From assembly GCF_030817835.1 (NCBI RefSeq), contig NZ_JAUSZR010000001.1, positions 2,914,001-2,978,000 of the forward strand: a stretch of DNA of 64,000 bases. The letters run 5' to 3'. Each line of letters begins with the position of its first letter. Position 1 is the first letter of the stretch. This stretch comes from Pseudarthrobacter sp. W1I19 (GTDB taxonomy: Bacteria > Actinomycetota > Actinomycetes > Actinomycetales > Micrococcaceae). Of this stretch, positions 31,827 through 60,652 are shown in pieces. The notes under the pieces were generated by a model, which did not search any database, was not told where the DNA came from, and worked only from the letters and a program-made list of their open reading frames with translations. A program made the translations under genes and the position numbers.

Positions 31827-34800
31827 TCAGTCCCTGTTTTCGGGCGGCAGCGCAACCTGGATTTTGCGCGCCTTTCCGCGCCCCACCACGTACCCGCGGC
31901 CCGGGATGAAGTCCGGGCCGGTCCGGCCCAGCGATGTGTTCAGCAGGCTGTCACCTTCGATGTCGCCCGGGTTCAGCAGCAGGCCCCGCCGGCCGGATTT
32001 GAAGGGCTGGGCCAGTGACCAGGCCGAGGACCAGGTGGAGGTTTCGGATTCACCGATGACCCATTGGTCCGCCTTAATGGACGCTGTCACCAGCCGGCCC
32101 ACGCCGGACTCCGCCATGGTGTCGGTGAATTCCGTCAGCCCCTCGATGAAAATGGCCAGAGCCCCCGGGTTTCCCGAGGAGTGCTCCACCAGGTCTTCCA
32201 CTACCTCGGCTACGTCGTCCGGGCCCACCACTGAGCGGTTCCAGATGGGCAGGGAGGCGACGGCGGACCGGCGGGCCCCGATGTAGATGAGCTCCGTGGC
32301 GGGGTTGGACCGTCGGAGGGCGTAGGCCAGGGTCACGAGCGCGACGGTCCGGCCGGCGCCTGGCGGGCCGGCGAGGAGGAGCGGTCCCCGTGCCATGACC
32401 TCAGCCGGGCGGAGCGTTTCGTTGTCGACGCCGATCACGGGCAGGTCCGGGCCGCCGGCGGGAAGGACGTCCAGATCCACCTGCTCCGGCAGCTTCTCGA
32501 TGCCGGGGGCGGACTCCAGGCCCTGGCGCAGCATGGCTTCGCTGAGCTTGTGCACTTCACGGGCCTGCAGGGCAAGGTTGGAGTTCCCGCCCAGCACGGC
32601 GAGCTGCACTTCGAGCCCGTCCAGCAGCCCCCGGCCGGGCGGGGAGCCGGCGCCCAGCACGTCCCGCGGAACATCCATGGACATGTAGTCCTCCTCGGAG
32701 GAGAGCCGGAGGACCAGGCGCCGCTGGATGGAGGCGAGCAATGAGGCGGGGACCGAGTTGGGCCTGTCCCCGGTGACCACCAGGTGGATGCCGAGGGTAC
32801 GGCCGTCGGTGGCCAACTGCAGGAAAATGTCCCACAGCCCGGACAGCCTGCTGTGTTCGTACGCCTCGCGGAACGCCGACATACCGTCCACCAGGACAAA
32901 GATCCGCTTCTCATGGGGCCGGTTGGCGAGCTTGCGGTACTCCACGATGGTGGAGGCACGCACCTCGGCGAATGCGGCGGACCGCTGCTCAGCGATGTCC
33001 CGCAGCAGGCGCAGCAGGCGGCCCACGCGTTCCACGTCGTCGCCATTGATGATCTCGCCCACGTGCGGAAGCTCCTCCAGCATCCGCAGCCCGGAGGATC
33101 CGCAGTCGATCCCGTAGACGTGCACAGGCCCGCCGCGGGGAGTGACTGCAGCGGCGATCGCGATGCCCCGCAAAGCCGCCGATTTTCCTGATCCGCCTGT
33201 GCCGTAGATGGCCATGTTGCCGTCTTTGTCCGGCTGGTAGAACACGGTGGGCTGGGCCTGCCTGGCAGGATCATCAGCCACCCCGAGGAGCAACTGTTCG
33301 TCGGTGCGGGGGTTGGGCAGCCTGGAGAAATCGTAGGTCTTGGCCAGTTCATCCAGCCATGGTTTGCGCGGTGGCCCGATCGCGAGCGAGCCGGCCGCGC
33401 GGACAATGGTGGCCGTCATCCGCGCGATGTCGTTGGGGCCAGCCGGCGCCTCGAGCACGGGCTTTTCCGGGGCGGGAGCCTCCCAGTTGGGGCCGGAGCC
33501 GAACGCCATCTCCACGATGTCGATCTGCGGCCGTTGGGGTTTGTCCGTAGTCCAGCCGCCGGCGTAACCGGTCTGGAAGCCCTGGATCCGGCCGGGACCG
33601 GTCTTGGCCGCGCCCCGCCCCGGGATGGCGGGGTCGAAGTAGGCGGCATCCGGGACGCCCAGGATGTCCGTGGCGTCCTCCTCGTCGGCCATACGCAGCG
33701 CCACCCGAAGGTTGGTATTGGCCCGCAGGCTGTCCTTGATCACGCCGGCCGGGCGCTGGGTTGCCAGGATGAGGTGCAGGCCCAGGGACCGTCCGCGCGC
33801 GGCAACGTCCACCACGCCGTCCACGAACTCGGGGACCTCGCTGGCGAGCGCCGCAAATTCGTCCACGATGATGATCAGGTAGGGCGGCGCTTCCGGATCG
33901 GCCTCGCGCTGCAGCGCCAGCAGGTCCTTGGCCTTCTTCCGGTTCAGCAGGTGCTCCCGGTAGTGCAGTTCGGCGCGCAGCGAAGTCAGCGCACGCCGGA
34001 CCAGGTGCGGCGAAAGGTCCGTCACCAGTCCTACCGTGTGCGGCAGGTTGATGCAGTCAGCGAAAGCGGCCCCGCCCTTGTAATCAACAAACAGGAAGCT
34101 GACCCGGTCCGGGCTGTACGCCGCCGCCATGCCCATCACCCAGGACTGCAGGAATTCGGATTTGCCGGCACCGGTGGTTCCGCCCACCAGGGCGTGCGGG
34201 CCCTCGTTCTTCAGGTCCAGGTACAGCGGTTCGATGCCTTTGGAACCCACCAGGGCGCGGAGGGTGCCGTTGTCCTTGCGGTTGGCCACGGCGCTGCTGT
34301 GCACGGAGTTGTTTTCCGTCCAGCGTTCGGCGACGGCCTGCGGGTTGTCCAGGAAATCCTTGCCGATCAGGGTGGCATAGGAGACGGCGCGTGGAAGGTC
34401 GGAATCATCGGTGACCGGTTTGCCAACGTCCACCACCGGCGTGAGCATCCTGGCCAGCTGCCCGGCGAGTTCGGCGTCCACGCTCTCGCAGCTGACGGGG
34501 TAGGTGTGGCGGCCCAGCCGGACCTGTCCGGTGGTGGTGCCGTGTTCGGCGTCCACCACCATAAAGTCGCGGCAGGCAGCGGGTATGGCCTGCACATCGG
34601 TGGCCACCCACAACACGTGCACGCCGGCATCCGGGCCACGTTCGGCGAGCCGGGTAAGACGCCCCCGGTCCACGGGGGCGTCGTCCTCCACAACCACCAG
34701 CACGGCCGGCACCACCGGTGCCTCCACCTCGTCCTTGGCTGGATCCAGGGCGGGGCGAAGGGCGGGGCCGGAGCGTTTGGCGGCGGTTTCCCTGGCTTCC

Positions 34801-36272
34801 ACCAGGTCTTCGAGGCGGGCCACCAGGGATGCGCCGCCTGCCGAACCGGCGGCCAGGTGGTCGCCGGACAGGGGGCTGTGGCCGGAGCCGACGTGCGGCA
34901 GCCACTGGAGCCAGTTCCATCTGTCCCTGGACTGGGCGGAGGTGATGGCTGTGAGGACCACTTCGGCCGGTGAGTGCAGCCCTGCGAGCTGGAGCACCAT
35001 GCCGCGGGCAATATCGTCCACCAGCCCGCGGGCGCCCGCGATGCCCAGCGAGCCGGCTGTCCGGAACTGCGATACCACCGGCACGCCTTCGATGTCCCGG
35101 AACTGCTTGATGCAGTCCTGGATTTCGCGGGCGTACTCCACCTCGGTGTCGTTGTTCGACGGTTCCTCCAGGAGGACCCGCGAGGGCACGGTGCCCAGGC
35201 CGAACCGCAGGCCCAGGAAGCCGCTGTGTTCCGGGCGGTGGGTCCACAGCAGCGGACCCAGTTTGTAGATGGCGTCAACGGTGTCGCTGACGGAGGGTGC
35301 CTCCTGCAAGCGGACGGCACGCTCCACGTGCTGCAGTTCGGTGATGTCCTCCCGGAAGGCGGCCATGGACGCGCGGAAATGCTTGAGCTGGTCCTTCTGC
35401 TGGCGCTTGGTCCGCATTTTCTGGTCCACGTAATGGCCCACCACGAACAGCGGCATCATCAGCATAAACACCGCCGAGAGCGGATTGTTGCTGACCGAAA
35501 AAATCACCGCACCCATCAACAGCGGGATGAGCAGCATGATGAAGGGGAAAGGATGGTCCTCGGGGCGTTTGGGTCCGGCGGGCAGGACGCGCTTCGGTTC
35601 CTCAAACCGGGGAACCACCCGAGGTGAACGGTTGAAGTCCACCAAAGGCGAGGTGGGCGCGGCGGCCTGGTTGTGTCCCAGAGGGACCACCGTGATGGTG
35701 GTGTCGCCCAGGGTGATGGTGTCCGAGGAATTCAACGTGGCGCGGGTAACCGGCAGGCCGTCCATCAGCAGCCCGTTGGCGGAATTGGTGTCCACGATTT
35801 CCACGGACTCCCCCACCGTGATGCGGGCATGCCGTTTGGAGGTCAGCGGATCGGAGAGCCGGATGTCCACGTCCCGGTCCCGGCCGATGTAGCTGGTGCC
35901 GGATGGCAGCGAAAATTCGCGGCCGACGTCGGGCCCTGACAGCACGCGCAGGGTGGCGGCCGCGGGGCCGCGGGTGGCACTGGGGTCACCGAACTGTGCG
36001 CTGACCTGGGCCAGGGACACTACGGAGCCGGGCCGGAGGCCTGATTCGAGGAGGTTGTCCTCGCGGGCGAGGACGTTGCCGCGCATGCCGCCGCCCACAA
36101 AGGCCTCATCGATCTTCAGCGAAAGGTTGTCCGGGGCGGGCGTGCCCTTGCGGGCAGGGTCGGCGGCCCAGAGCGTTGCAGCAACGTCAGCCACGGTGGC
36201 GAGACCGTCCACGGTGACGGCGAGGTCCTTGGCGTCGGCAGGGTCCCGGCGGAGAGTCAGCCGGATCCTCAT
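31827..36272 (-). CDS. EssC-like FHA-FtsK/SpoIIIE ATPase (type VII secretion-like)
   Basis: A 1481-aa membrane ATPase. Order: a ubiquitin-like N-terminal strand region (about 1-90), an FHA domain (about 105-200, TSYIGRDRDVDIRLSD and SKRHARI), two TM helices (about 240-285), then three P-loop domains. D1 has GGTTGAGKS (about 696) and Walker B YLIIIVDEFAAL, so it looks active. D2 has YGTGGSGKS (about 1022), but its Walker B is VLVDGMS. D3 has GPPGAGRT (about 1300), with Arg for the Walker Lys. This matches EssC/EccC-type motors that push folded substrates through type VII systems. Its start overlaps the preceding gene by 4 nt. No other core T7SS gene is visible. Confidence 0.88.
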   Translation of the reverse strand: MRIRLTLRRDPADAKDLAVTVDGLATVADVAATLWAADPARKGTPAPDNLSLKIDEAFVGGGMRGNVLAREDNLLESGLRPGSVVSLAQVSAQFGDPSATRGPAAATLRVLSGPDVGREFSLPSGTSYIGRDRDVDIRLSDPLTSKRHARITVGESVEIVDTNSANGLLMDGLPVTRATLNSSDTITLGDTTITVVPLGHNQAAAPTSPLVDFNRSPRVVPRFEEPKRVLPAGPKRPEDHPFPFIMLLIPLLMGAVIFSVSNNPLSAVFMLMMPLFVVGHYVDQKMRTKRQQKDQLKHFRASMAAFREDITELQHVERAVRLQEAPSVSDTVDAIYKLGPLLWTHRPEHSGFLGLRFGLGTVPSRVLLEEPSNNDTEVEYAREIQDCIKQFRDIEGVPVVSQFRTAGSLGIAGARGLVDDIARGMVLQLAGLHSPAEVVLTAITSAQSRDRWNWLQWLPHVGSGHSPLSGDHLAAGSAGGASLVARLEDLVEARETAAKRSGPALRPALDPAKDEVEAPVVPAVLVVVEDDAPVDRGRLTRLAERGPDAGVHVLWVATDVQAIPAACRDFMVVDAEHGTTTGQVRLGRHTYPVSCESVDAELAGQLARMLTPVVDVGKPVTDDSDLPRAVSYATLIGKDFLDNPQAVAERWTENNSVHSSAVANRKDNGTLRALVGSKGIEPLYLDLKNEGPHALVGGTTGAGKSEFLQSWVMGMAAAYSPDRVSFLFVDYKGGAAFADCINLPHTVGLVTDLSPHLVRRALTSLRAELHYREHLLNRKKAKDLLALQREADPEAPPYLIIIVDEFAALASEVPEFVDGVVDVAARGRSLGLHLILATQRPAGVIKDSLRANTNLRVALRMADEEDATDILGVPDAAYFDPAIPGRGAAKTGPGRIQGFQTGYAGGWTTDKPQRPQIDIVEMAFGSGPNWEAPAPEKPVLEAPAGPNDIARMTATIVRAAGSLAIGPPRKPWLDELAKTYDFSRLPNPRTDEQLLLGVADDPARQAQPTVFYQPDKDGNMAIYGTGGSGKSAALRGIAIAAAVTPRGGPVHVYGIDCGSSGLRMLEELPHVGEIINGDDVERVGRLLRLLRDIAEQRSAAFAEVRASTIVEYRKLANRPHEKRIFVLVDGMSAFREAYEHSRLSGLWDIFLQLATDGRTLGIHLVVTGDRPNSVPASLLASIQRRLVLRLSSEEDYMSMDVPRDVLGAGSPPGRGLLDGLEVQLAVLGGNSNLALQAREVHKLSEAMLRQGLESAPGIEKLPEQVDLDVLPAGGPDLPVIGVDNETLRPAEVMARGPLLLAGPPGAGRTVALVTLAYALRRSNPATELIYIGARRSAVASLPIWNRSVVGPDDVAEVVEDLVEHSSGNPGALAIFIEGLTEFTDTMAESGVGRLVTASIKADQWVIGESETSTWSSAWSLAQPFKSGRRGLLLNPGDIEGDSLLNTSLGRTGPDFIPGRGYVVGRGKARKIQVALPPENRD

Positions 36273-36973
36273 CCTTCGTCCACGCCCCTCATCTTTTCCA
36301 GCAGGTACAGGTCATCGGCTGTGACCAGGTGCGAGGTGACTGCGTGCTCCACCAGCCGGGCACGGCGGTTGGTGGCGAGTTTGCCGCCGCCGCCACGAAG
36401 GCCGACAACGCCCACTCGATCCAGTTTGTCGCACACGTTGTCCAGTTTCCGATTGAAGCGGGTCAGGGCCCAGCCCAGCGTTTTGGCGGCGGCAGCGGAG
36501 GACGGGATGGCACTGAAGCCGGTCCCTTCGCGCCGCAGCATCGGCTCGGCGAGCGCCACGATCAGTGCCTTCTGGGAATCCGTGAACACCACGGGGCCGA
36601 TGGTGGTGTCCCCGTTACTGTCCTCCTCCCGCGCCTGCTGCCGGAAGGACGGCGTCTTCAGGTGCACCGCGAATTCATAGGTGGTGGGTCCGGCAGTGAA
36701 AATGATGTTGGTGTGGCTGAACACCAGCGGGATCCGGGCGCCGGGCGAAAGCCAGGCCTGCATGCCGCCGGACGCGTCCGCCACCGTGGCGGAGAGCATG
36801 CTGCCCACGTTGCTGAGCCACCAGATCCCGTCATAGCGGGCCACCTGCAGGAACTGCCGGTGCAGGTAGGGGTTGTCATCCACTTCGAGGTCGCCTTCGC
36901 GGCCGATGTTGAAGACGTCCTCGTCTGAGGGTTCGTACCATTCACCACAGAAATCTATTGCTAGATCCCCCAT
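36269..36973 (-). CDS. FHA-like protein with C-terminal winged-helix-like region
   Basis: A 234-aa protein. Residues about 15-110 look like a diverged FHA domain (FNIGREGDLEVDDNPYLHRQF, then WWLSNVG), the phosphothreonine-binding fold. The C-terminal part (about 135-230, VFTDSQKALIVALAEPML and AKTLGWALTRFNRKLD) resembles a winged-helix of transcription activators. It could link the adjacent Ser/Thr kinase to gene expression or to the ATPase. The ATG at 36971-36973 is preferred, since GAGGAGG lies inside a possible TTG-started extension. It overlaps the FtsK-like gene by 4 nt. Confidence 0.65.
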   Translation of the reverse strand: MGDLAIDFCGEWYEPSDEDVFNIGREGDLEVDDNPYLHRQFLQVARYDGIWWLSNVGSMLSATVADASGGMQAWLSPGARIPLVFSHTNIIFTAGPTTYEFAVHLKTPSFRQQAREEDSNGDTTIGPVVFTDSQKALIVALAEPMLRREGTGFSAIPSSAAAAKTLGWALTRFNRKLDNVCDKLDRVGVVGLRGGGGKLATNRRARLVEHAVTSHLVTADDLYLLEKMRGVDEG

Positions 36974-37043
36974 TTTCCGTGCCTCCTCGTCGGGCAAAAC
37001 TCTGAATGTCGTCGTTGCGTAAGGGCTTGGAATATGGGGCCGC

Positions 37044-38750
37044 TCATGGGCCGGTGCAGGCGATGGACGCTTCCTCCAGCGGGGAGAACGCTCCGTCGGA
37101 GCGGACGATCATCACCTGCACGCAGGTCTGTCCGGAGGGGTTCGGCTTCACTCGAACGGGAGGCTGGTCGATGGACTGGTATTCGCCGCCTCCGCCGATC
37201 GTATAGACCCGCCACTTGTAGGTGTCGCCGGGCTTGGGTTGCGGGTTGGTCCAGGTAAAGGAGGCATCGCCGCCGGGCGCCAAGGTCCCGGTGAGGCCTT
37301 CGACATCCGGCACTGTGCCGTTGTCGAGGGCGTCGGCCGGCGGCTTGCTGGCTTCCTGGCTCTGCGGAGCCTTGGGTGTCTGCGGTGCGGCGTTGGCGAT
37401 CACGATGCCCACCACTGCCGCAAGGACCAGCAGGGTACCGCCGGAGATGGCAAGCCAGAGGTTGCGTTTCCCGTGATCCCGGCCGGAAGCGGCAACTTCG
37501 GCCGGTTCCTCCACCCGCGCGGGCCGGTGGACAGTTGTATCAGCAGCGTCTACACCGTCGGGAAGCCTACCGTCCTGCGGCCTGCCGGCCGGGGAAAGTC
37601 CGGGGGTAACCGGCGCGCTGCCGGCGCTGCCGCGGAGCACCGTGGCCGGGGTCCAGTCCTGGGGCTGGGGTGCATGCGCTGGCGGGGTCAGGGCTGCCAG
37701 GGTCAGGGCTGCCGGCGGCGTAACGCGCGACGGCGGGGCCTCCTGTGCGGGGACCTGCGGCCGGGTGCGGGCCGGGAACGTGGGCGCGCTCCCGGTCCGC
37801 TCCGGGTCGATGGCCGCGATGCTCCGCACCCGCGTTTCCTCGGCGCCGTCATCGGGGTGGTTGTCCTCCTGCTGCGGCTCTTCGAGGACTTCGAAGGGCG
37901 TGACCGAGAGGTTCAGTTCAGCCTGGATGCGCTGCAGGGCAAGGGCGAAGGCATGGGCAGAGGAGTACCGGGACTGCGGGGACTTGGCCATGGCCGTGGA
38001 CAATGCCAGTTCCAGGGATTCCGGGACATCGGCGCGGCCCAGCCGGGGCACGGGCATGTTGCTGATTCTGTTGATCAGTTCGCGCTGGGAGTTGTCGGCG
38101 CCGGGCATCACGAAGGGCGACCGCCCGGCCAGGAGCGTGTACAGCGTTGCGCCAAGGGCCCACACATCCACCATCACGCCGTCCACGTTGCCGTCGGTGA
38201 ACTGTTCCGGCGGGGACCACGGGATGGACATGCCGGAGTCCTCGTCGGCGTCGCCGGCCAGGGTTCCGGAAATGCCGAAGTCCGTCAGGGCAGGGCGGTT
38301 GTAGTCGGTCACCAGGATGTTGGCAGGTTTGATGTCGCGGTGCGCGATGCCTGCGCGGTGGGCGGTCTCGACGGCGGACGCCACCTGGATGCCGACGGCC
38401 AGCACCTCATCAACGCTGAACCGCTGCCGGCGGTACCGTACGTCCAGGCTGGGCCGGGAGCAGTACTCCATGGCCAGGTAGGAATGCCCGTCGTCGGTGA
38501 CCTCCGCCTCGAAGATGGTGACGATGTACGGGTGGGAGGACAGCTGGGCCATCAGGTTGGCCTCGGACTCAAACCTGCGGCGCGCACCTTCGGTTTTCAG
38601 GTCCGAGAGCAGCACCTTGACGGCAACTCTTCGCCGCGGCCGGTCCTGTTCGTAAAGGTAGACGTCGGAGAACCCGCCGGATCCCAGCAGGCTGATGTAG
38701 GTGAACCCCGCGATGCGGGGCGGCGGCGCAGACGGCCGTTTGGAACTCAA
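37044..38750 (-). CDS. Transmembrane Ser/Thr protein kinase with extracellular domain
   Basis: A 568-aa Hanks-type kinase. Gly loop GSGGFSDVY (23-31), catalytic Lys K45, HRDIKPANIL (137-146), DFG (157-159) and PPEQF (180-184) are intact, so activity is expected. A low-complexity Pro/Ala-rich linker (about 285-430) precedes a TM helix (LWLAISGGTLLVLAAVVGIV). The roughly 100-residue outer domain looks FnIII/Ig-like (FTWTNPQPKPGDTYKWRVYT), unlike the PASTA repeats of PknB. It may sense the envelope and phosphorylate the FHA proteins nearby. The start is TTG at 38748-38750, 5 nt behind GAGGAG and overlapping the previous stop. Confidence 0.92.
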   Translation of the reverse strand: MSSKRPSAPPPRIAGFTYISLLGSGGFSDVYLYEQDRPRRRVAVKVLLSDLKTEGARRRFESEANLMAQLSSHPYIVTIFEAEVTDDGHSYLAMEYCSRPSLDVRYRRQRFSVDEVLAVGIQVASAVETAHRAGIAHRDIKPANILVTDYNRPALTDFGISGTLAGDADEDSGMSIPWSPPEQFTDGNVDGVMVDVWALGATLYTLLAGRSPFVMPGADNSQRELINRISNMPVPRLGRADVPESLELALSTAMAKSPQSRYSSAHAFALALQRIQAELNLSVTPFEVLEEPQQEDNHPDDGAEETRVRSIAAIDPERTGSAPTFPARTRPQVPAQEAPPSRVTPPAALTLAALTPPAHAPQPQDWTPATVLRGSAGSAPVTPGLSPAGRPQDGRLPDGVDAADTTVHRPARVEEPAEVAASGRDHGKRNLWLAISGGTLLVLAAVVGIVIANAAPQTPKAPQSQEASKPPADALDNGTVPDVEGLTGTLAPGGDASFTWTNPQPKPGDTYKWRVYTIGGGGEYQSIDQPPVRVKPNPSGQTCVQVMIVRSDGAFSPLEEASIACTGP

Positions 38751-47123: not shown

Positions 47124-47175
47124 ATGTGAACCTTCGTTGTGCTGCTGGGATGGACTGTTGAGCCGGGTGCGGCGG

Positions 47176-48147: not shown

Positions 48148-48230
48148 GGGGTTGCTCTTCCTTCTGTGATGGTCAGGTTGTGGTGCGGGACGGGGCTTGC
48201 CGGTCCCGCTGGTGCACCGGCGGTGCCGGC

Positions 48231-51200: not shown

Positions 51201-54200
51201 GGCCGGCGCCAGCAGGATGATCCTGCCGCTGGCCTTGCTCACCGTGGCCTGAAGTGCCGGATCAGCTCCGATGCCGTCGGTCAGGATGCGGATGAGGTCG
51301 CCGTCCGGGTCGGTGTCATTTCCGGTGGCGTCGACGGCGATCTGGCGGCCCGGGCGTACCCTGACCTCGTCGTCCACGGGAGTGGGTTTCTGGTTGACCT
51401 CGCCGCGAGGTGCGACCCCAACCGTCACCGTGCCGCTGTTGACCGCACCCTGCCGGTCCACCACCTTGTAGCGGAACGTGTCGGTACCGGCACCGTCCCC
51501 GGCCGCCGTGAAGTCGATGAAGTTGCTGCCCACCGTGGCGGTACCCATGGCGGGGGTGCTGTCGATGCCGGTCAACTGGACCGAGTCGCCGTCGGGATCG
51601 ATGCCGTCCAGCGGGACGGGAATCCTGACAGTACCCGCAGCGACCACCCGTGCGGTCAGGTTCCGCGGCTGCGGACGCGAGTTCTCAGCGCCTTCCAGCG
51701 GCAGGATATGGATGGTCACGGCGGCGGCACTTTTTTGGCCCTGCGGGTCCACGGCATTGTAGATGGCCCGGACTGTCTTGGGCTGGCTGCCGGCGATAAA
51801 GCGGAGGGTGTTCTCCGAGACAAAGCTTTTCCCGTCCGCCGGGTCCACACCCTGCGGCAGGACCGGGTCCACCGTCAGTTCCTGGCCCTGCGGGTGGGTG
51901 TCGTTGTCGAGCACGGGGATAGTGACGACGTCGTTCACCCGGACATTCACTTCGTCCGGCTTGGGCTGGGGTGCTTCCACGACGGCGGGTGCCGGGACCG
52001 GGACCACCGAGACGCTGCCGGTGGCCGACTTCTTCCCGTTGGACATGGTGTATTCGAAGAGGATCGGGTCCTTCGTCCCCAGGACGTCCGTGATGCGCAG
52101 GACGCTGTGGTTGATCACGCTGACCGACGCAGTGGAATTCTCCGGGAGCTTCACGGACTGCAGCACCAGGACGCTGCCGGACGGATCGGAGTCGTTGGCC
52201 AGCGGGTCCAACAGCACGCTTCCGCCCGTCGGCATCAGCGCGACGTCGTGGACGGCCACGGGATTGCCGGTGTCGTCGCCGGATTCCACGTCCACCCGGA
52301 TGAGGCCCTGGCTGCTTTGCGGCCCGTTGCTGGCGATGTAGGTGAGGTAGACGGGCCCGGGGGTGGTGCTGCGGAAGGTAAACGTGCCGCCGTCGGTGAC
52401 CGGGCCGAGCTCTGCGGGGCCGTTGGCTTCCACCTGGGCCAGGCGCAGGGCACCCCCGTTGGGGTCGACGTCGTTCTTCAGCGGGGAGATGACCAGGTCC
52501 TGGCCTGTCACGGCCGTGACGTGGTCGGCGTTGACCACCGGTGCCAGGGCTCCCGGGGGCTGGACGTTGACCACCACTTTCCCGGTGACCGTGGCGCGGC
52601 CGTCCAAGATGGTCACCTCCACGTTCTTTTTCCCGGCGGTGGCGCCGGAGTCCTGGAACGTGAGCAGGCCGTCGCGGCGGACCTTGACCTGGTCCTGCTC
52701 GTTGTCTGCCTTGGCGTCAAGGAGTACCAGGTCGTCGCCGTCGGGGTCGATCCAGTCGGTGAGGATGTTCTGGCTGACGGTTTTGCCTTGTTCCACCAGC
52801 ATGGTGGTGTTGTCGCCGCGCTTGAACTGCGGCGGCTTGTTCTCGTCCGGAGCCACCACGCTGAGGGTCACCTGCCCGGCGGCGGAGAGGCCGCGGCCGT
52901 CAGAGGCGTTGTAGCTGAACGTCTCCGTCCCGGGTTTCGCGTCGGCCGGGACGGAGACCTGGAACGCGGTTCCGCCGTAAATGTCTTCGAGGGTGCCGGC
53001 CTTGGGGCCGGAGTCAGTCACAGCTGCGGTGAGAACATCGCCGTCGGGGTCCGAGTCATTGTCCAGGACGCTGAGGATGGTGGTTCGGCCCGGGCGGACG
53101 CCGACGGCGTCGGGCTTGGTTTCGGGCGGACGGTTGGGTTTGGTGCGGTCCGGCAGGACGTTGATGGTGTTGTTGTCCGCCGATTCCTGGTCCTGTTCGT
53201 CGGATTCGTTTTTGGGTGGAACAACGTCGTCCCAGTTGTTGACCAGCTGCATGTTCTGGTTGACCAGCCACACATTCCCGGAGTTCACATCGTTCAGGAC
53301 CACCAGGTCCCGGTTCACCCGGAAAACATACGACGGCGACGCACTCGCCTTGGGAACATCCACGTTCTTGTCATCCGCGTCGTTCGTGCAGTCACGGACG
53401 TACTTGTTCGCCCCCGACCACGCCGCATGCACACACCCGCCCAACTGCACCGGCGCCGCCGGCACACCCTCACCACCGAACGACACCGTCCTCGCCGTGC
53501 CACCGTCCAGCGGCTGCTTCAACAACGCCTTCGGCGTGGAGATTGCAACAAAGTCGCTGCCCGGACCGGTCTGCTGCAGTTTCGCATCCCGGGCATTGTC
53601 CAACTGCAGCCGCTTACCACCGGGAAGGAACAACTTCCCCGCCGCCGCATCCAGCACCACCGGCTTGTCCCCCACCACCGTGACCTGCAGATCCCCGGCG
53701 CCCTTCAACTCAGACCACGTCTCAGCATCCGAGGACACCACCGCACCGTTGACATCAACACCAGTCACCGTCACCACACCGGATTTCGGATCCGCCGAAT
53801 AAACCCGGTCATCGGCCCCCACCGCCGACACCGTACCCTCCGAACCCACCAGCACCGGCTCGGTGGCCTCCTCATCAAAACCATTCACCGTCGACGGCGA
53901 CACCGCCCACACCTTGCCCGACACAGCATCCGTCACCGAGATCACCTCGGAGCCGAAACTCACATCAGCAGCACCAGGCAACCGCTTATCCCCACCCAGG
54001 CGCATGTTCGCCGGCGACACCTGGTTCAACGTCGAACCAGACTCATCATCAACAAACACCTCCCCCGCATCCTGCAAAATATCGAACGTCGTCGACGCCG
54101 GCGTCACCGCCCCATCCAAAACACGCGACGGATAATTCAACCGCCCCACCGCATTCTTAGACTTCGACACCACCCACACGCCACCATCATTCAAATCCAC

Positions 54201-54332
54201 CTCAGTGGTCTTAAACCCCGGATACAACACAGCACCGGTCACCACCACAGCAACAGCAGCACCAAACGCCGTACCACCCACAAGCTTCTTATGGCGCGTT
54301 TTGAGCCCAAGCTTCCCCAGCAGACTTGTCAC
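48231..54332 (-). CDS. Giant Ig-like/FnIII surface protein 1
   Basis: A 2033-aa protein. A 16-residue cytoplasmic tail precedes a single TM helix (17-39), then a beta-propeller-like region (about 45-375). About ten cadherin/Ig-like repeats (about 395-1470) carry the recurring LDNDSDPDG-type motif every 90-100 residues. About five FnIII modules (1475-1925) and a C-terminal Cys-containing domain (about 1930-2033, ending CNPPQYMPNR) follow. It is probably anchored by the N-terminus and extends through the cell wall as a fibre. Residues about 17-369 are identical to giant protein 2. Start is GTG at 54330-54332; GAGGG lies about 12 nt ahead. Confidence 0.88.
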   Translation of the reverse strand: MTSLLGKLGLKTRHKKLVGGTAFGAAVAVVVTGAVLYPGFKTTEVDLNDGGVWVVSKSKNAVGRLNYPSRVLDGAVTPASTTFDILQDAGEVFVDDESGSTLNQVSPANMRLGGDKRLPGAADVSFGSEVISVTDAVSGKVWAVSPSTVNGFDEEATEPVLVGSEGTVSAVGADDRVYSADPKSGVVTVTGVDVNGAVVSSDAETWSELKGAGDLQVTVVGDKPVVLDAAAGKLFLPGGKRLQLDNARDAKLQQTGPGSDFVAISTPKALLKQPLDGGTARTVSFGGEGVPAAPVQLGGCVHAAWSGANKYVRDCTNDADDKNVDVPKASASPSYVFRVNRDLVVLNDVNSGNVWLVNQNMQLVNNWDDVVPPKNESDEQDQESADNNTINVLPDRTKPNRPPETKPDAVGVRPGRTTILSVLDNDSDPDGDVLTAAVTDSGPKAGTLEDIYGGTAFQVSVPADAKPGTETFSYNASDGRGLSAAGQVTLSVVAPDENKPPQFKRGDNTTMLVEQGKTVSQNILTDWIDPDGDDLVLLDAKADNEQDQVKVRRDGLLTFQDSGATAGKKNVEVTILDGRATVTGKVVVNVQPPGALAPVVNADHVTAVTGQDLVISPLKNDVDPNGGALRLAQVEANGPAELGPVTDGGTFTFRSTTPGPVYLTYIASNGPQSSQGLIRVDVESGDDTGNPVAVHDVALMPTGGSVLLDPLANDSDPSGSVLVLQSVKLPENSTASVSVINHSVLRITDVLGTKDPILFEYTMSNGKKSATGSVSVVPVPAPAVVEAPQPKPDEVNVRVNDVVTIPVLDNDTHPQGQELTVDPVLPQGVDPADGKSFVSENTLRFIAGSQPKTVRAIYNAVDPQGQKSAAAVTIHILPLEGAENSRPQPRNLTARVVAAGTVRIPVPLDGIDPDGDSVQLTGIDSTPAMGTATVGSNFIDFTAAGDGAGTDTFRYKVVDRQGAVNSGTVTVGVAPRGEVNQKPTPVDDEVRVRPGRQIAVDATGNDTDPDGDLIRILTDGIGADPALQATVSKASGRIILLAPAEAGTVNVRYTIADDRDASAQAAIRVVVDNEVPLKAPIARDDRVTSAQTLGKTAVDVPVLKNDEDPDGVGENLKISTEATTARPGPEGNMVVDLTEQPQLIPYTVEDVDGQQSTAVIWVPGLGQQVPTLAKDEVIEVIAGQSVDVALDEWVKVREGRSPRLTQADRIKLIGADGGDPVTGDGTGLKYRAGADYVGPGSLTFEVTDGTGPDDPAGLKSTLSIRTKVLPDPNKNNPPELLGATVEVPKGDSASTDLGKLTSDPDRDDVEKMKYELVGGSPAGFNASIDGKALKVSAADSSGTGTTGAVQVKARDPRGLEATATYQLAVTASNRPKPVANDDLEPNAAAGKAVTVNVLANDANPFPETALKIIAAATETGSGNVEVSGDSVTVTPAPGFTGTMVVSYTVADKTGDSSRQATARIRLTVKDKPQAPTTPQAQSVGDRTALLNWTAPADRGSPITKYTVYGEGGFQQDCPANTCTLNGLVNNTKYHFQVTASNEFGESDRSPASAEVRPDVKPDTPLAPSLKFGDKELSVNWTAPASKGSPVKSYDLEISPPPPGQNAQIQNLTAVSYVWKGLQNGVSYKVRVLARNDAKGPSEWSPYSAAEVPAGVSATPTAPTAAQAGSLGSQSQLKVSWAAPNNNGDAVSAYTLTTLRGGAVVSSQQVAGTTQNVTVDNSETNYTFTVSATNKAGTSGTSPQSAAIRAAGKPGQVSSGTVEATGTSGQLKVTFTPLTEAQRNGSTASEIAYSYNADGKSGAITAGGGVIGGMTNGRDITVTIIATSTKNNVSGDASAIGTGNPYGPPNAPVLTGQSSNTQQVHWTWTTPANNGRAIQRFEVSYEGGPWTSVGMDTRYDRDANAWSSTKNLKVRACSVVCGAQDSANATSGKDPTPPPPTSWSITASPVRSCTEPRKGTDSYVAGNPSQCNGEGKWLDAGAGAQTDRYQVWYKTSNNPSGIWYHLTSGMAAGNWIRCDTSSLGCNPPQYMPNR
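53225..54285 (-). repeat. Near-identical 1061-bp block, copy A
   Basis: This block and 59524-60584 (offset 6299) match over 1061 bp with four differences found by eye (at 53522, 53547, 53556 and 54140), all silent. It encodes the TM helix plus propeller-like region of the giant proteins. Sequences on both sides differ sharply, so the identity ends abruptly. Confidence 0.95.
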
Positions 54333-54443
54333 AGCGTTACGTTTCCCTCAGTTTGTGTGGCCGTACGGCAGCGCGTTCGCGTACTGGCATGAGACTCTCT
54401 TTTCCCCGGCGCAAGCCTACCCAACCCTTACAGGCCCCGCGAT

Positions 54444-54457
54444 GGGGAGCCCTCCCC
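54444..54457 (-). terminator. Short hairpin between the two giant genes
   Basis: GGGGAG-CC-CTCCCC, a 6-bp stem, lies 31 nt upstream of the second giant gene's stop on the plus-strand map, inside the 155-nt gap between the two genes. The stem is short and has no T-tail in the right place, so termination is doubtful; it could also be an RNA-processing site. Confidence 0.2.
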
Positions 54458-54487
54458 AGTTCCGGGCCCGCGCCCGGGCCATACCGG

Positions 54488-57400
54488 CTATGGCGTTGCT
54501 CCCGTCGGGAAGGTGCACAGCGGCACACCGCTTTGGGCCGGAGCACCGATCGAGGTGTGCGTGGAATTGATCCAGCGGGTCGCGTTCGGTGAGCCGCGCA
54601 TGATGTAGTACCACTGGCCGTCACCGCCGTAGGTGGTGCCGTGCGGCTTCCAGCACATAACTGTGAACGAGTCCATGTAGGACATCCACGGCCGGTCGTA
54701 GCCGCCCTTGCCGTCGCAGGTATGGGCCACCGGATCATAGGACGTAGGCCCGGGAAGATCGGTACAGCTGCGGTCCATTCCGGTATTCAGGCGTGTAGCC
54801 CAGCTGGTCTTCTGCGGGCCGGACTGTGCGGACGCCGAGGCCAGCGGCCCGCCGGTGCCACGCGAGTTGACGCCCTGGACCTCGATGGAGTGCCGCTCGC
54901 TGAAGCCGCCGGTGTTGATCGTGCGGCTTCCGGAGGCCGCCACCCGTTCCCAGCCGCCGCCGTCGATCCTGATCTGGGTGTAGGCGATGTCCCAACTGCT
55001 GGCGGGAGGTGAGGCCCAGCTCAATGTCAGGTTCTTCTGGTTTTCAGCGCCATCCGTCCCGGAAGCCGACGGCGTACCGGGCCAGCCATAGGGGTTCACG
55101 GTGGCCGGCGCACTGGCGTCAGAGCTGGGGGCAACGGCGGAATTGGCGACCACTGTGATGGCGGTGCTGGTGCCGTTCGTGAAGCCGCCCACGGTTTGGC
55201 CGGGCCTGATAGGCCCGGTCTGGCCCGTACTGGCGCGGTACGTGTAACTGACCTCGGCGTACGATGAACCGTTTCGTTCCGCTGCCGTCAATTCCCGGAA
55301 GTTGATGGTGACGGAACGGCCGGCGCCTCCGGTGTCTGCTTCGGTTGCCGACACGCCGGAGACCTGGGCGAGCTTGCCGGTGGCCCGGCGCGGAGCCGAC
55401 GCGGCGCTGACTGCGCCCTTGCCGGCTTTGTTCTCGGCCTGGACGGTAAAGGTGTACGAGGCTTCGGAGTTGTTGGCGGTGAAGTTGGCGGTCCGGACAG
55501 TGCCTGCCACCACCTGCGTCTGCGCCGCACCTCCGCCGCCGCTCATGGTGACGTAATAATTCCTGATGGCGTCGCCGTTGGTGTTCGGCTCGCTCCAATC
55601 AACCTTGAGCTGGTTGGACGTACCCACCGAAGATGCCACGGACGAGGTGGGCGCCGCCGGAGCAGCGGGGACGCCCGCCGGATTGTCCTCAGCGGAGTAC
55701 TGGCCCCAGTCGGACGGGCCGAGCTCGTTGACGGCCTGGGCGCGCACCTTGTAGCGCACACCGTTGGTCAGGCCCGGCCAGTTGTAACTGAGTCCCGTCA
55801 CGCCGTTCTTGACGGCGATCCCGGTGGCCGGCGGAGGGGAGATTTCCAGGTTGTAGGTCTTTACTGCGGAGCCCTCGGTTTTGGCCGGGGCCCAGTTGAT
55901 CTCCATGTTCTTGTCGCCGGCCTTGACCGTGGGGGCGTCCGGCGGTGACGGTTTTTCATCCGGCCGGATTTCGTTGGACACCGGCGAAGGATCGGATTCC
56001 CGGACTTCGTTGGTGGCCGTGACGGTGAAGACGTACTTCACGTCGTTGGTCAGCCCGGTCAGTGTGCAGGTGGTGGTGGGGCAGTCCTGGGTGAAGCCGT
56101 TGCCGGAGCGCACCGTGTACTTGGTGATGGCCGCGCCGTTGTCCGACGGCGGTGTCCACTTGAGCACGGCGGTCCGGCTCCGGACGTCCGTTGCCGTAGG
56201 CGCGGAAGGGGCGTCGGGCCGGTCGCGGACGGTGATGCGGATCCGGCCGTCGGTCTGCCGGGAAACGTCCTCCGTCTTGTCCATCACCGTGTAGCGCACC
56301 ACCATCACGCCTTTGGAACCATTGGCCGGGGTGACGGTGATGGAGTCCCCCGAGACGGCGGGCTGCCCGGCGGCGGAGCCGGTTTCCACGGTTGCGGACG
56401 TGATCCGCAATGGGGTCTCGGGGAACGGGTTGAAGTCATTCCCGAGCACATTGATGGTCTCGGAGCTGCCGGCGTTGGCTTTGTCCACCACGTCCTCGTT
56501 AGCCACCGGCAACGGCCGGTTCGATGCGACAACCGTTGCCGTCACCGTGGCACGGACCGGCTCGGACCGGCCGTCGGTGACCTTGAGCGGGATGCTTCCC
56601 TTCCAGCCGGCGTCCCTGGCCGATTCCGGGGTCACTTTGAGGGTTGTTTTGTCCACGCTGGCGGTGAAGCCCTCGGGCAAGGAACCATCGAGTTCGTACC
56701 TGAGCTTTTCCTGGTCGCCTGAGTCCACGTCCTTCGCAAGGTTTGCCAGCTCCAGGGTGGCGGATTCGCCCTTTGGCACGTCGAGGGTGGCACCGCTGAA
56801 GGTAGGCGCGTGGTTGGCGTTCGGATCCGGAATCACCTTGGTGATGATGCTGAGTGTGGACTTGAGGCCGGCGGGATCATCCGGTCCGGTACCGTCAGTC
56901 ACTTCGAAAGTGAGGGACCCCGGACCTACATAGTCCTTGAGGGCGGCGTAACGGAGGGCGCCGCCGTTCCCGGCCACCACGTCATCCGGCTCCGCACCCT
57001 GGACACGGACCTTGTCCACCTGGGTGATGAGGGGTGTGCGGCCGTCGCGGACCCGGACGTAGTCAGCCAGGTCAAGGGTGACCTCCTTGCCGGACATCAC
57101 CTCCACGACGTCGGTCCTGGCCAGGGTGGGGTGCTGTTCCCCCTGCCCGGGAACCCAGATGACCGCCGTCGCGGTTTGGCCGTCAACATCGGTGACCGTG
57201 TAGGGCACCAGCTGGTCCTCCGGCGCGAGCGTGACCTGCACCGTGCCGTCACCCGTTGCACGCGCATTGGGGTTGCCATCAGGGAGGCTGATCTTCAGCT
57301 CGGAGGCAACGCCGTCGGGATCGGAGTCGTTCTTCAGCACCGGAACATCCACCGCGGACTTGCCCAGCGTCTCCGCCTGGGTGACAACGTCATCCTTGGC

Positions 57401-60400
57401 GAGCGGAATCTTCAGTGCGGCTTCGGGGCTGACCCGGACCCGGATCACGGCGCCTGCCTGGGCTTTCTTGTCGTCCTGGATTTTGTAGCTGACGCTTTCG
57501 TTGCCTGCGGCGGCGGGCGCCGTGAGCAGTACTTTGCCGCCGTCGGCTGCTTCGACGGCAAGCTCGGGGCGGGCTTCGAAGCCGTTGGATACCAGGCTGA
57601 CCGGGTCACCGTCCGGGTCCGAATCGTTGGTGAGTGCGTCAACCGCGATTTTCCGGCCGGGACGGACATCCACGGCGTCGTCAATGGCGATGGGTTTCTG
57701 GTTGTTGGTCTCCTGCGGCGCGATGCCAACGATCACCGTGCCGGTGTTCTCTGCACCGATGCGGTCCCGGACGCGGTAGGTGAACGTGTCTGTCCCGGCG
57801 GCGTTGCCTGCAGCGGTGAATTCGAGGTATCCGTCCTTGACCACGGCCGTTCCCATCGCCGGCGCCTTATCCACGCCGGTCAGCTGGACGGAGTCGCCGT
57901 CGGTGTCCACGCCGTCCAACGGCACTGGGATGCGGACGGTCATGCCTGCCACAACGCGGGCTGTCAGGTTCCGGGGTTCGGGCCGGGTATTGAGTTGATC
58001 GTCCCGGGCCCGGATCCGGATGGTCACCTGCTGGGAGTCGGACTGCCCGGACTCGTTGGTGACCTTATAGATGGCGTACACCGTTTTGGGCAGGTCGCCG
58101 GCGATGAAACGCACTGATTGGCCGGAGGTGAAGATGCGGCCGTCCGCGGTGTCCGGTGTTTGCGCCAGCACCGGTTCCAGGGTGAGCTTGCCGCCGTTGG
58201 GGTCCGTGTCGTTGTCCAGCACCGGAATGGTGACCACGTCCCCGGCGCGGACGGTGGCTTCGTCCGGTTTGGCCTGCGGCGCCTGCAGCTTGGCGGGGGC
58301 GGGGACCACCAGTACGGAGATTTCGCCGGTGGCAGAGGACTTGCCGTTGGAGATTGTGTACTTCACGCTGAGCTGGCCATGGGCGCGGAGGTCGGTAATC
58401 CGCACCACCGAGTGGTCCAGGACCGCGACGCTCAGCGGCAGCCCGTCCGCGGCCGTCACCGACTGGACCACCAGTACACCGCCGGAGGGGTCGGAGTCGT
58501 TGCCCAAAACGTCCACCAGCACGCTGCCGCCGCTGGGCAGCAGGGCGGTGTCACGGACGGCCACCGGGGCGGCGTCGCCGCCGCCAGGCACGACGTCGAC
58601 GCGCACCAGCTGCTGGGCGCTGGCGGGTCCGTTGGTGACGAGGTAGGTGATGTAGTGGGCGCCCGGTGCGGTGGCGTTGAACGTGAACGTTTGCTGGTCG
58701 GCGCCCATAACGGCGGTGGAGTTGCCATCTGGTGTGATCTGGGCCAGCCGCAGGGCGCCGCCCTGTGGGTCCGAATCGTTCTTCAGCGGGGCGATCACCG
58801 TGTCCACCCCGGCAACAGCCACCACATGGTCCGCGTTGGCGATCGGCGGCAGTGCGCCGGCCGGTCGCACGTCCACGGTGACGTTGCCCTCCGCGGTGGA
58901 CCGTCCGTCCGAGACAGTGACGGTGACGGTTTTGCGCCCGGGGTCGGACCCGGAGTCCTGGAAGCTGAGCAAACCGTCGGGCCGGATCTTGACCTGGTCG
59001 CGCGGATCGCTGCTGGACGCGCCAACAACGAAAAGGTCGTCGCCGTCGGGATCGATCCAGTCGGGGAGGATGTTCTGGCTGACCACTTTGCCCGACTGCA
59101 CCACCAGTGTGCTGTTCCGGTTTGGTTTCTGCCGCGGCGCGGAGTTTTCCCCCGGCGGGATGATGTTCAGCGTGACGTCGGCGGAGCCGGAGAGGCCGCG
59201 GCCGTCGTCCACCGTGTACTTGAAAGCCTCGGTGCCGGTCTTGTCAGCGCCGATGCTGACCTGGAAACCGGTGGCGCCATAGATGGGTGAGAGCAGGCCG
59301 GACTGGAGCGGCTCAGGGGTCCGCACGGTGAGGATGTCGCCGTCGGGGTCCGAATCATTGTCCAGCACGGGGAGGATGGTGGTCTTCCCGGCGCGCACCC
59401 CGAAGGTGTCCGGCTTGGCCACGGGTGCGCTGTTGGGTTTGGTGCGGTCCGGCAGGACGGTCTGCTGCACTTCATCGGCGGAGTCCTTGTCGGCGTCGTC
59501 CGAGGTCTGCTGCGGCGGGATGACGTCGTCCCAGTTGTTGACCAGCTGCATGTTCTGGTTGACCAGCCACACATTCCCGGAGTTCACATCGTTCAGGACC
59601 ACCAGGTCCCGGTTCACCCGGAAAACATACGACGGCGACGCACTCGCCTTGGGAACATCCACGTTCTTGTCATCCGCGTCGTTCGTGCAGTCACGGACGT
59701 ACTTGTTCGCCCCCGACCACGCCGCATGCACACACCCGCCCAACTGCACCGGCGCCGCCGGCACACCCTCACCACCGAACGACACCGTCCTCGCCGTGCC
59801 ACCGTCCAGCGGCTGCTTCAGCAACGCCTTCGGCGTGGAGATTGCGACAAAGTCACTGCCCGGACCGGTCTGCTGCAGTTTCGCATCCCGGGCATTGTCC
59901 AACTGCAGCCGCTTACCACCGGGAAGGAACAACTTCCCCGCCGCCGCATCCAGCACCACCGGCTTGTCCCCCACCACCGTGACCTGCAGATCCCCGGCGC
60001 CCTTCAACTCAGACCACGTCTCAGCATCCGAGGACACCACCGCACCGTTGACATCAACACCAGTCACCGTCACCACACCGGATTTCGGATCCGCCGAATA
60101 AACCCGGTCATCGGCCCCCACCGCCGACACCGTACCCTCCGAACCCACCAGCACCGGCTCGGTGGCCTCCTCATCAAAACCATTCACCGTCGACGGCGAC
60201 ACCGCCCACACCTTGCCCGACACAGCATCCGTCACCGAGATCACCTCGGAGCCGAAACTCACATCAGCAGCACCAGGCAACCGCTTATCCCCACCCAGGC
60301 GCATGTTCGCCGGCGACACCTGGTTCAACGTCGAACCAGACTCATCATCAACAAACACCTCCCCCGCATCCTGCAAAATATCGAACGTCGTCGACGCCGG

Positions 60401-60652
60401 CGTCACCGCCCCATCCAAAACACGCGACGGATAATTCAGCCGCCCCACCGCATTCTTAGACTTCGACACCACCCACACGCCACCATCATTCAAATCCACC
60501 TCAGTGGTCTTAAACCCCGGATACAACACAGCACCGGTCACCACCACAGCAACAGCAGCACCAAACGCCGTACCACCCACAAGCCGCCGCGAACGGAAGC
60601 GCCCTTCAGCGGTTCCCGGCCCTTTTGAGCGCGCAGGTCTGCGAAGTTTCAC
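54488..60652 (-). CDS. Giant Ig-like/FnIII surface protein 2
   Basis: A 2054-aa paralog of the neighbouring giant protein. A distinct basic cytoplasmic tail (about 23 residues, RRPARSKGPGTAEGRFRS) precedes the TM helix and the identical propeller-like region. A diverged set of about ten cadherin/Ig-like repeats follows (VLDNDSDPDGDILTV is the first), then FnIII modules from about 1479 and a C-terminal Cys domain (about 1950-2054, with RSCTDLPGPTS and MCWKPHG). The tail differs from protein 1, suggesting different ligands. It is the first gene of the 29-kb run and starts with GTG at 60650-60652, about 10 nt behind GGGGG. Confidence 0.88.
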   Translation of the reverse strand: MKLRRPARSKGPGTAEGRFRSRRLVGGTAFGAAVAVVVTGAVLYPGFKTTEVDLNDGGVWVVSKSKNAVGRLNYPSRVLDGAVTPASTTFDILQDAGEVFVDDESGSTLNQVSPANMRLGGDKRLPGAADVSFGSEVISVTDAVSGKVWAVSPSTVNGFDEEATEPVLVGSEGTVSAVGADDRVYSADPKSGVVTVTGVDVNGAVVSSDAETWSELKGAGDLQVTVVGDKPVVLDAAAGKLFLPGGKRLQLDNARDAKLQQTGPGSDFVAISTPKALLKQPLDGGTARTVSFGGEGVPAAPVQLGGCVHAAWSGANKYVRDCTNDADDKNVDVPKASASPSYVFRVNRDLVVLNDVNSGNVWLVNQNMQLVNNWDDVIPPQQTSDDADKDSADEVQQTVLPDRTKPNSAPVAKPDTFGVRAGKTTILPVLDNDSDPDGDILTVRTPEPLQSGLLSPIYGATGFQVSIGADKTGTEAFKYTVDDGRGLSGSADVTLNIIPPGENSAPRQKPNRNSTLVVQSGKVVSQNILPDWIDPDGDDLFVVGASSSDPRDQVKIRPDGLLSFQDSGSDPGRKTVTVTVSDGRSTAEGNVTVDVRPAGALPPIANADHVVAVAGVDTVIAPLKNDSDPQGGALRLAQITPDGNSTAVMGADQQTFTFNATAPGAHYITYLVTNGPASAQQLVRVDVVPGGGDAAPVAVRDTALLPSGGSVLVDVLGNDSDPSGGVLVVQSVTAADGLPLSVAVLDHSVVRITDLRAHGQLSVKYTISNGKSSATGEISVLVVPAPAKLQAPQAKPDEATVRAGDVVTIPVLDNDTDPNGGKLTLEPVLAQTPDTADGRIFTSGQSVRFIAGDLPKTVYAIYKVTNESGQSDSQQVTIRIRARDDQLNTRPEPRNLTARVVAGMTVRIPVPLDGVDTDGDSVQLTGVDKAPAMGTAVVKDGYLEFTAAGNAAGTDTFTYRVRDRIGAENTGTVIVGIAPQETNNQKPIAIDDAVDVRPGRKIAVDALTNDSDPDGDPVSLVSNGFEARPELAVEAADGGKVLLTAPAAAGNESVSYKIQDDKKAQAGAVIRVRVSPEAALKIPLAKDDVVTQAETLGKSAVDVPVLKNDSDPDGVASELKISLPDGNPNARATGDGTVQVTLAPEDQLVPYTVTDVDGQTATAVIWVPGQGEQHPTLARTDVVEVMSGKEVTLDLADYVRVRDGRTPLITQVDKVRVQGAEPDDVVAGNGGALRYAALKDYVGPGSLTFEVTDGTGPDDPAGLKSTLSIITKVIPDPNANHAPTFSGATLDVPKGESATLELANLAKDVDSGDQEKLRYELDGSLPEGFTASVDKTTLKVTPESARDAGWKGSIPLKVTDGRSEPVRATVTATVVASNRPLPVANEDVVDKANAGSSETINVLGNDFNPFPETPLRITSATVETGSAAGQPAVSGDSITVTPANGSKGVMVVRYTVMDKTEDVSRQTDGRIRITVRDRPDAPSAPTATDVRSRTAVLKWTPPSDNGAAITKYTVRSGNGFTQDCPTTTCTLTGLTNDVKYVFTVTATNEVRESDPSPVSNEIRPDEKPSPPDAPTVKAGDKNMEINWAPAKTEGSAVKTYNLEISPPPATGIAVKNGVTGLSYNWPGLTNGVRYKVRAQAVNELGPSDWGQYSAEDNPAGVPAAPAAPTSSVASSVGTSNQLKVDWSEPNTNGDAIRNYYVTMSGGGGAAQTQVVAGTVRTANFTANNSEASYTFTVQAENKAGKGAVSAASAPRRATGKLAQVSGVSATEADTGGAGRSVTINFRELTAAERNGSSYAEVSYTYRASTGQTGPIRPGQTVGGFTNGTSTAITVVANSAVAPSSDASAPATVNPYGWPGTPSASGTDGAENQKNLTLSWASPPASSWDIAYTQIRIDGGGWERVAASGSRTINTGGFSERHSIEVQGVNSRGTGGPLASASAQSGPQKTSWATRLNTGMDRSCTDLPGPTSYDPVAHTCDGKGGYDRPWMSYMDSFTVMCWKPHGTTYGGDGQWYYIMRGSPNATRWINSTHTSIGAPAQSGVPLCTFPTGATP
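59524..60584 (-). repeat. Near-identical 1061-bp block, copy B
   Basis: Partner of the block at 53225-54285. Its coding strand uses many NNG and NNT codons (TTG, GGG, GCG, GAT, GTT), unlike the NNC-rich codon choice of the rest of both giant genes and the cluster. Confidence 0.95.

Follow-up and report, generated by a model that had tools for sequence, protein, structure and literature searches.

The DNA analyzed here is a 64,000-nucleotide stretch of the genome of Pseudarthrobacter sp. W1I19 (contig NZ_JAUSZR010000001.1, forward-strand positions 2,914,001 to 2,978,000), called the window below and numbered from its first letter. Between positions 31827 and 60652 it carries a 29-kb block of eleven genes, all on the minus strand, in which a motor akin to the EssC ATPases of type VII secretion systems (T7SSs), here called EssC-A, accompanies the gene set of the PFNA operon. 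We consider it moderately probable that the block encodes a T7SS-like variant, embedded in an operon of the PFNA type, whose substrate genes lie elsewhere in the genome and whose secretion and phospho-gating we infer. More firmly than this mechanism as a whole, we hold that EssC-A is paired with WXG100 proteins of a kind termed type A below. By its gene set, the putative variant lies outside the described T7SSa to T7SSj, and, judging from sequence matches, the EssC-A system is widespread in Actinomycetota.

A PFNA-type gene set upstream of a type VII-like motor

In Bifidobacterium, the PFNA operon comprises pkb2, fn3, aaa-atp, duf58, and tgm, joined in some species by prpC, a hypothetical gene, and fha, according to the main text of PMC8430577. 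A kinase, an fn3 protein, a MoxR AAA protein, a DUF58 protein, and a transglutaminase-like (TG) protein are all encoded in the window's cluster, which thus has a PFNA-type gene set. The 79 best of 587 motor matches were compiled as named loci; after those with less than 9 kb of upstream DNA (9 of 79) or less than 1.5 kb of downstream DNA (10 of 79) had been dropped, 70 and 69 loci, respectively, were left for the neighborhood counts. Upstream of EssC-A, TG was present in 63 of the 70 loci, DUF58 in 59, x242, a gene for an FHA-fold protein, in 56, a PP2C-type phosphatase in 54, and the kinase in 53, and 7 loci had neither TG nor DUF58. An earlier reading of this DNA (the original prediction) had called for a check on the co-occurrence of these genes in relatives, and the cluster indeed proved to be conserved across the Micrococcales and beyond. 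Among 149 genomes of the order, EssC-A (bit score of >800) was present in 40 and x242 in 52, of which 33 belonged to the 40 with EssC-A. No link of PFNA with a type VII motor was found in the titles, abstract openings, and passages of the open-license papers listed; the likeness of the mycobacterial moxR operon to PFNA is pointed out in a review from 2025 (PMC12067865).

PFNA sets and motors also occur side by side in other arrangements. Genome G078 has a T7SSd-like locus (L200) about 13 kb from a motor-less PFNA set (L199), the distance from TG to the motor being about 34 kb. In G036 (L109) and G095 (L105), PFNA clusters without EssC-A have another EssC (27 to 28% identical) a few kilobases away, and in G036 a strong WXG100 match lies beside it.

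The TG protein of the cluster (43237 to 45795), a multi-transmembrane (TM) protein according to Pfam, hydropathy, and alignment, lacks the catalytic cysteine, its motif reading GDDEQYA versus GYCIHYA and similar sequences in paralogs. This absence was observed throughout the cluster copies. We found 88 of them, two without a residue aligned at the cysteine column; the other 86 (75 distinct) had Asp in 72, Glu in 7, Ser in 4, Gln in 2, Ala in 1, and Cys in none, with serine in copies from G019, G078, and G148. All seven TG paralogs from outside the cluster, one of them from the window's genome, had cysteine. The PFNA paper calls the tgm product a transglutaminase (PMC8430577, main text); the residue pattern predicts that this protein is not an enzyme.

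The EssC-A motor

EssC-A (31827 to 36272) is a protein of 1481 amino acids, assigned on profile, hydropathy, fold, and motif evidence. Its best curated profile was EssC (TIGR03928), with 539 bits over 1000 residues (equivalog cutoff, 778), and the EccC-type profiles TIGR03924 and TIGR03925 gave 340 bits (cutoff, 509) and 288 bits (cutoff, 347), so that all three stayed below their cutoffs. A DNA translocase reading was rejected, the FtsK profile reaching 50 bits against 539 for EssC and the genome having a separate FtsK-like gene; the motor, described earlier as EssC-like, is thus EssC/EccC-like. An FHA domain at about residues 101 to 200, clear by both sequence and fold, is followed by two TM segments and three ATPase domains, of which D1 has intact Walker A and B motifs, D2 lacks the Walker B glutamate, and D3 has GxGRT. 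The protein is 98% identical to the motor of Arthrobacter sp. OV608.

A tree of 36 motors grouped all 32 EssC-A rows, including that of the window, in one clade with a support of 100, long branches leaving the outer order unsure. EssC-A is 27% identical over 1419 columns to the motor of L200, a locus that we call T7SSd-like from its gene set rather than from published TsdC sequences and that falls outside the clade. It is 25% identical to EssC-B, the second EssC-like protein of the window's genome. EssC-B (G000:C1:1433503-1437627; L048:9501-13628) has 1375 amino acids and an FHA domain, and its gene is flanked by galactofuran genes on one side and a gene for a PdtaS-type kinase on the other; no known T7SS part was found among the neighbors scanned.

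Residues 1 to 90 of EssC-A may form a fused ubiquitin-like (EsaB/YukD) beta-grasp domain, an assignment that we regard as tentative. In the AlphaFold2 model they follow a bb-a-bb-b order (b, strand; a, helix; mean pLDDT of 82.5 over residues 1 to 210). Comparison with YukD gave weak matches in 3 of 20 rows (best E value, 0.025), and the best match among PDB sequences was a redesigned ubiquitin (E value, 0.0045). Since a fold search (Foldseek) with the N terminus gave only FHA among the matches listed, the ubiquitin-like assignment draws on secondary structure and weak sequence matches.

Type A WXG100 proteins and their association with EssC-A

The original prediction had held that WXG100 genes are absent, which is true only inside the cluster: the genome has one strong match to ordinary WXG100 proteins (G000:C1:3587119) and four type A proteins. 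Type A is defined by a small gene found directly behind EssC-A in several relatives, with the core WxGPDA..F...W, and a profile (A1) built from 15 such sequences found matches in 35 of the 149 genomes. In the window's genome, its four matches (4639043, 4747626, 1109398, and 1251695) lie outside the cluster and reach no more than about 22 bits with the WXG100 profile of Pfam. They correspond to one protein of 88 amino acids, its start chosen within a longer frame, and to three type A-headed proteins of 504, 316, and 455 amino acids. The 88-residue protein shares 53% identity with the product of the EssC-A-adjacent gene of Arthrobacter oryzae. When the 316-residue protein served as the query of a protein search, 235 relatives were returned, and 8 of the 120 listed matched its head only (first 27 to 29%, with 67 to 74% identity), thus displaying the pattern of a modular effector; for some relatives, the source annotation already reads "WXG100 family type VII secretion target." The type A-headed genes are found at L194:6672-8039, L195:5379-6893, and L196:5718-6668; one overlaps the next gene, whose product is a predicted lipoprotein that may confer immunity, and another is followed by a gene for 216 amino acids without a Pfam match. 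The protein encoded by the third has a GHSWG motif, which we take to be lipase-like.

The association of motor and type A was observed at the level of both loci and genomes. Among 69 named loci, 32 have a type A gene no more than 1.5 kb behind the motor, and type A was found in 24 of 40 genomes with EssC-A versus 11 of 109 others. In family f11, EssC-A was the only EssC match in all ten genomes at the thresholds used (the EssC-B query found only the EssC-A gene), and type A was present in all ten, while the best ordinary WXG100 match was 1.5e-6 and three genomes had none. On these grounds, the strong ordinary WXG100 protein was rejected as the partner of EssC-A. Loci of Rhodococcus, Mycobacterium, and Mycolicibacter keep EssC-A and type A with no PFNA core gene in the 22 to 24 kb examined. 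These data suggest that EssC-A exports type A WXG100 proteins.

Behind EssC-A in L095, L096, L097, and L101, we observed genes for about 110 and about 99 amino acids, then one for 390 to 460, and then others for about 170 to 240 (a longer frame in L101), an arrangement that looks like a secretion-substrate module. Pfam gave no clear family for the genes scanned behind the motor in these unlinked loci (those of L095).

Kinase, phosphatase, and the FHA pocket

The Ser/Thr kinase (37044 to 38750; Pfam, hydropathy, and motifs) has one TM segment, the part C-terminal to it being predicted outside, and the catalytic Lys, HRD, and DFG are present. Motifs are likewise intact in the PP2C-type Ser/Thr phosphatase (40719 to 41714; Pfam, curated profiles, and motifs); in both proteins, these are the motifs that we take to be catalytic. 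For the FHA pocket that reads phosphothreonine, we assumed the consensus R, S, H, N. The window's EssC-A has an RSHN pocket, as do 83 of 86 distinct PFNA-linked loci (86 of 89 before duplicate merging), in a count of 107 rows, 103 of them distinct once four duplicates were merged, from which 6 of 112 motor matches of at least 700 bits were omitted because their N terminus was uncovered. The pocket is lost in three Nocardiaceae/Mycobacteriaceae loci, those of Rhodococcus, Mycobacterium, and Mycolicibacter, none of which has PFNA genes; their motors sit inside the EssC-A tree next to that of Dietzia, which has both PFNA genes and RSHN. A further loss was seen in L100. The variant is thus probably phospho-regulated, as the motifs and the conserved pocket suggest, in line with the control by phosphorylation proposed earlier.

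Giant fibers and remaining genes of the cluster

Fiber 1 (54488 to 60652; 2054 amino acids) and fiber 2 (48231 to 54332; 2033 amino acids) share one architecture by Pfam and hydropathy: an N-terminal TM segment, Big_9 and fn3 repeats, and a Cys-containing C-terminal domain. Since both have this N-terminal segment and, by hydropathy, no C-terminal one, they are likely exported by Sec and anchored at the N terminus, and export by EssC-A is unlikely. Overall, the proteins are about 60% identical, and DNA comparison of their heads (59523 to 60584 in fiber 1 and 53224 to 54285 in fiber 2, both on the minus strand) showed 99.6% identity (4 differences in 1062 bp). In two relatives with two fibers, head protein identity was 69% and 49%. 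The heads in this lineage therefore appear to be the product of recent gene conversion or duplication.

The remaining cluster genes encode a MoxR-type AAA+ ATPase (47176 to 48147; Pfam), a DUF58 membrane protein (45792 to 47123; Pfam and hydropathy), an RDD membrane protein with an N-terminal zinc ribbon and a C-terminal FHA motif (RDD-FHA; 41711 to 43240; Pfam), a zinc-ribbon-like protein with a C-terminal FHA domain (38747 to 40732; Pfam and relatives), its start placed at Met68 of the listed open reading frame, and x242 (36269 to 36997). The last is strongly conserved and has an FHA fold (residues about 9 to 115; fold search) and a conserved C-terminal helical domain; it may be a regulator. 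It had no Pfam match, and the fold-search matches listed cover the FHA part, a few weak SMAD MH2 matches being among them; to the eye, the C-terminal domain resembles what we take to be a winged helix, and no fold match was listed there. Pfam, profile, and hydropathy scans of the window thus bore out the eleven-gene content given in the original prediction. Overlaps of 4 to 14 nucleotides occur at 6 of the 10 gene junctions.

Between EssC-A and ligA, the minus-strand gene x204 (31092 to 31706) encodes a predicted exported Pro-rich protein with a C-terminal TM segment, a candidate accessory only. In Arthrobacter oryzae this slot is occupied by a type A WXG100 gene; x204 itself, being a Pro-rich TM protein, was ruled out as a WXG100 protein. 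Immediately upstream of the cluster, the minus strand also carries an adenylate/guanylate cyclase gene (60783 to 61916). A locus titled Sporosarcina beigongshangi (L137; NZ_JADHDY010000023.1) has an Arthrobacter-like cluster with a motor 64% identical to EssC-A, and its assembly is probably mislabeled or contaminated.

Comparison with known systems

The two general marks of a T7SS, an EssC/EccC-type ATPase and a WXG100-family partner, were both found, the latter as the four type A proteins of the genome. The original prediction had also stressed that standard parts are missing, which holds for EccB (no match in the window's genome; the positive control lay above cutoff in 6 of 100 genomes of the phylum) and fails for WXG100 proteins. 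YukC/EssB and stand-alone YukD/EsaB likewise had no match in the genome, the Bacillus subtilis control being positive for each. As an RDD-FHA-like gene directly precedes EssC-A also in five loci whose neighborhood lacks the other PFNA genes (L094 to L097 and L101), RDD-FHA is a candidate for the channel.

With T7SSa/ESX (EccB, EccC, EccD, EccE, and MycP), the variant shares an EccC-type ATPase and WXG100 proteins in the genome but not EccB. Like T7SSb (EssC, EssA, EssB, EsaA, and EsaB), it has the FHA domain, two TM segments, and ATPase chain of EssC, its best curated profile, although it stays below the curated cutoff and has no YukC/EssB or YukD/EsaB match in the genome. T7SSd of Olsenella and Bifidobacterium consists of TsdA, TsdC, the kinase TsdD, TsdH, and the Ig-like giant TsdI (PMC11217815, main text), and the likeness extends to an FHA-bearing EssC-type ATPase, a membrane kinase, a giant Ig-type envelope protein, and a WXG100 protein. 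However, TsdI has a Sec signal, Ig-like domains, and a C-terminal TM segment, whereas the fibers of the window have Ig-like domains and no C-terminal TM segment and gave no BLAST match to the giant of L200 at 1e-4. The window's kinase has one TM segment like TsdD but, in comparison with the two kinases of G078, resembles that of the PFNA set (183 bits, L199) more than the T7SSd-like one (83 bits, L200), and x204 differs in kind from TsdH, a small single-TM protein. T7SSe and T7SSf of Bacillota resemble the variant in having a phosphatase and an FHA protein beside the motor, WXG100 proteins, and a ubiquitin-like protein, with a kinase in T7SSe and the AAA+ protein TsfV in T7SSf; their ubiquitin-like TseB and TsfB stand alone, in contrast to the tentative beta-grasp-like domain fused to EssC-A. 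MoxR, DUF58, and transglutaminase do not occur in the main text of that paper (PMC11217815).

The likeness to the PFNA operon of Bifidobacterium lies in the membrane kinase, giant fn3 protein, MoxR, DUF58, TG, PP2C, and FHA proteins common to both, and the order pkb2-fn3-aaa-duf58-tgm is resembled by kinase-x242-fiber-MoxR-DUF58-TG in relatives (L051, L053, and L057). The main difference of the window's cluster is EssC-A, next to its downstream kinase, two fibers, RDD-FHA, and x242; the main text of the PFNA paper nowhere uses "ftsk," "WXG100," or "type VII" (PMC8430577).

Proposed mechanism and alternatives

In the mechanism that we propose, EssC-A would be the motor, exporting type A WXG100 proteins and larger type A-headed proteins. 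The membrane kinase would phosphorylate partners on threonine, PP2C would reverse this, and the FHA pockets of EssC-A, RDD-FHA, and the other readers would dock the phosphorylated parts, so that assembly or activity is gated. The giant Ig/Fn3 proteins would be exported by Sec and anchored at their N termini, forming an envelope-spanning scaffold or adhesin, and MoxR, DUF58, and the dead TG-like protein may help to fold or place them.

Several observations weigh against this mechanism. Type A occurs in 11 genomes without EssC-A, and in six of these (G012, G059, G087, G129, G143, and G146) another EssC-like gene, 34 to 41% identical over the matched part, is no more than about 6 kb away. Conversely, 16 of 40 EssC-A genomes had no type A match, several having different genes of about 100 amino acids behind the motor. 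Genome co-occurrence was compared by Fisher tests on hand-compiled genome lists and TG positions, which ignore relatedness. No EccB/EssB-like channel part was found in the genome, EccE, MycP, EsaA, and EssA not having been searched for. As to the pocket, three PFNA-linked loci depart from RSHN (two RSHH and one QAHY), and 13 of the 17 distinct loci that lack PFNA genes have RSHN as well (14 of 18 before merging). Its loss in the Mycobacterium/Rhodococcus branch fits phospho-gating, yet counts as one event and concerns loci only, kinases elsewhere in those genomes not having been searched for.

It is possible, though we doubt it, that the PFNA-type envelope/adhesin operon and the EssC-A secretion motor are independent modules, which do no more than share an address and perhaps the kinase and whose products never form one machine. 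Of the 52 genomes with x242, 19 are without EssC-A, and no best TG match lies within 30 kb of EssC-A in 17 of 40 genomes, a number inflated by draft contig ends and missed TG matches; the PFNA and motor halves can thus each live alone, and the single machine of the original prediction is to that extent not supported. Fiber-MoxR-DUF58-TG sets without an adjoining motor in L108 and L199 and the absence of FtsK from the main text of the Bifidobacterium paper (PMC8430577) point the same way. Against two modules speak the co-location in 63 of 70 named loci, spanning many families and different gene orders, the 4-nucleotide overlap of x242 and EssC-A in the window, the other EssC a few kilobases from the PFNA clusters of G036 and G095, and the loss of the pocket in the branch whose loci are without the kinase set.

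That the motor exports or assembles the giant fibers, as first proposed, we judge very improbable: only gene neighborhood favors it, but the fibers have their own N-terminal TM segment or signal, the fiber-MoxR-DUF58-TG set occurs in genomes without EssC-A, and EssC-A accompanies WXG100-type genes where no fiber match was found. Equally improbable is an assignment of the type A proteins to EssC-B, leaving EssC-A with another substrate. Since the window's genome has both motors, substrates there are not assignable by presence alone; however, the ten f11 genomes have EssC-A only, together with type A in all ten and weak or absent ordinary WXG100 proteins, and type A adjoins EssC-A in relatives, whereas the 20-kb surroundings of EssC-B gave no type A match in the three genomes concerned (L048, L049, and L050).

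Implications

If the proposed single system is correct, it would add a widespread actinomycetotal member to the T7SS variants described in 2024, with type A WXG100 proteins and the effector-like proteins that they head as predicted substrates and phosphothreonine on partners of the EssC-A FHA domain as the predicted switch. More speculatively, and in our view rather doubtfully, PFNA operons in general, including the cytokine-binding FN3 operon of gut bifidobacteria, may be the phospho-regulated envelope half of a T7SS machine, with the giant FN3/Ig proteins as a cell wall conduit or target-recognition arm and the "transglutaminase" as a structural pseudoenzyme. T7SSd and PFNA have both been reported for Bifidobacterium (main texts of PMC11217815 and PMC8430577). 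On this more speculative reading, Micrococcales would mostly keep both halves in one locus with a separate motor clade, EssC-A, into which the ubiquitin-like subunit may have been fused, and other lines would have two neighboring loci, PFNA and T7SSd-like, as in G078. The PFNA operon, so far discussed as a bifidobacterial host-sensing cluster, would gain a concrete and testable partner system, and since many carriers are soil species amenable to laboratory work, two poorly understood systems could be tested together.

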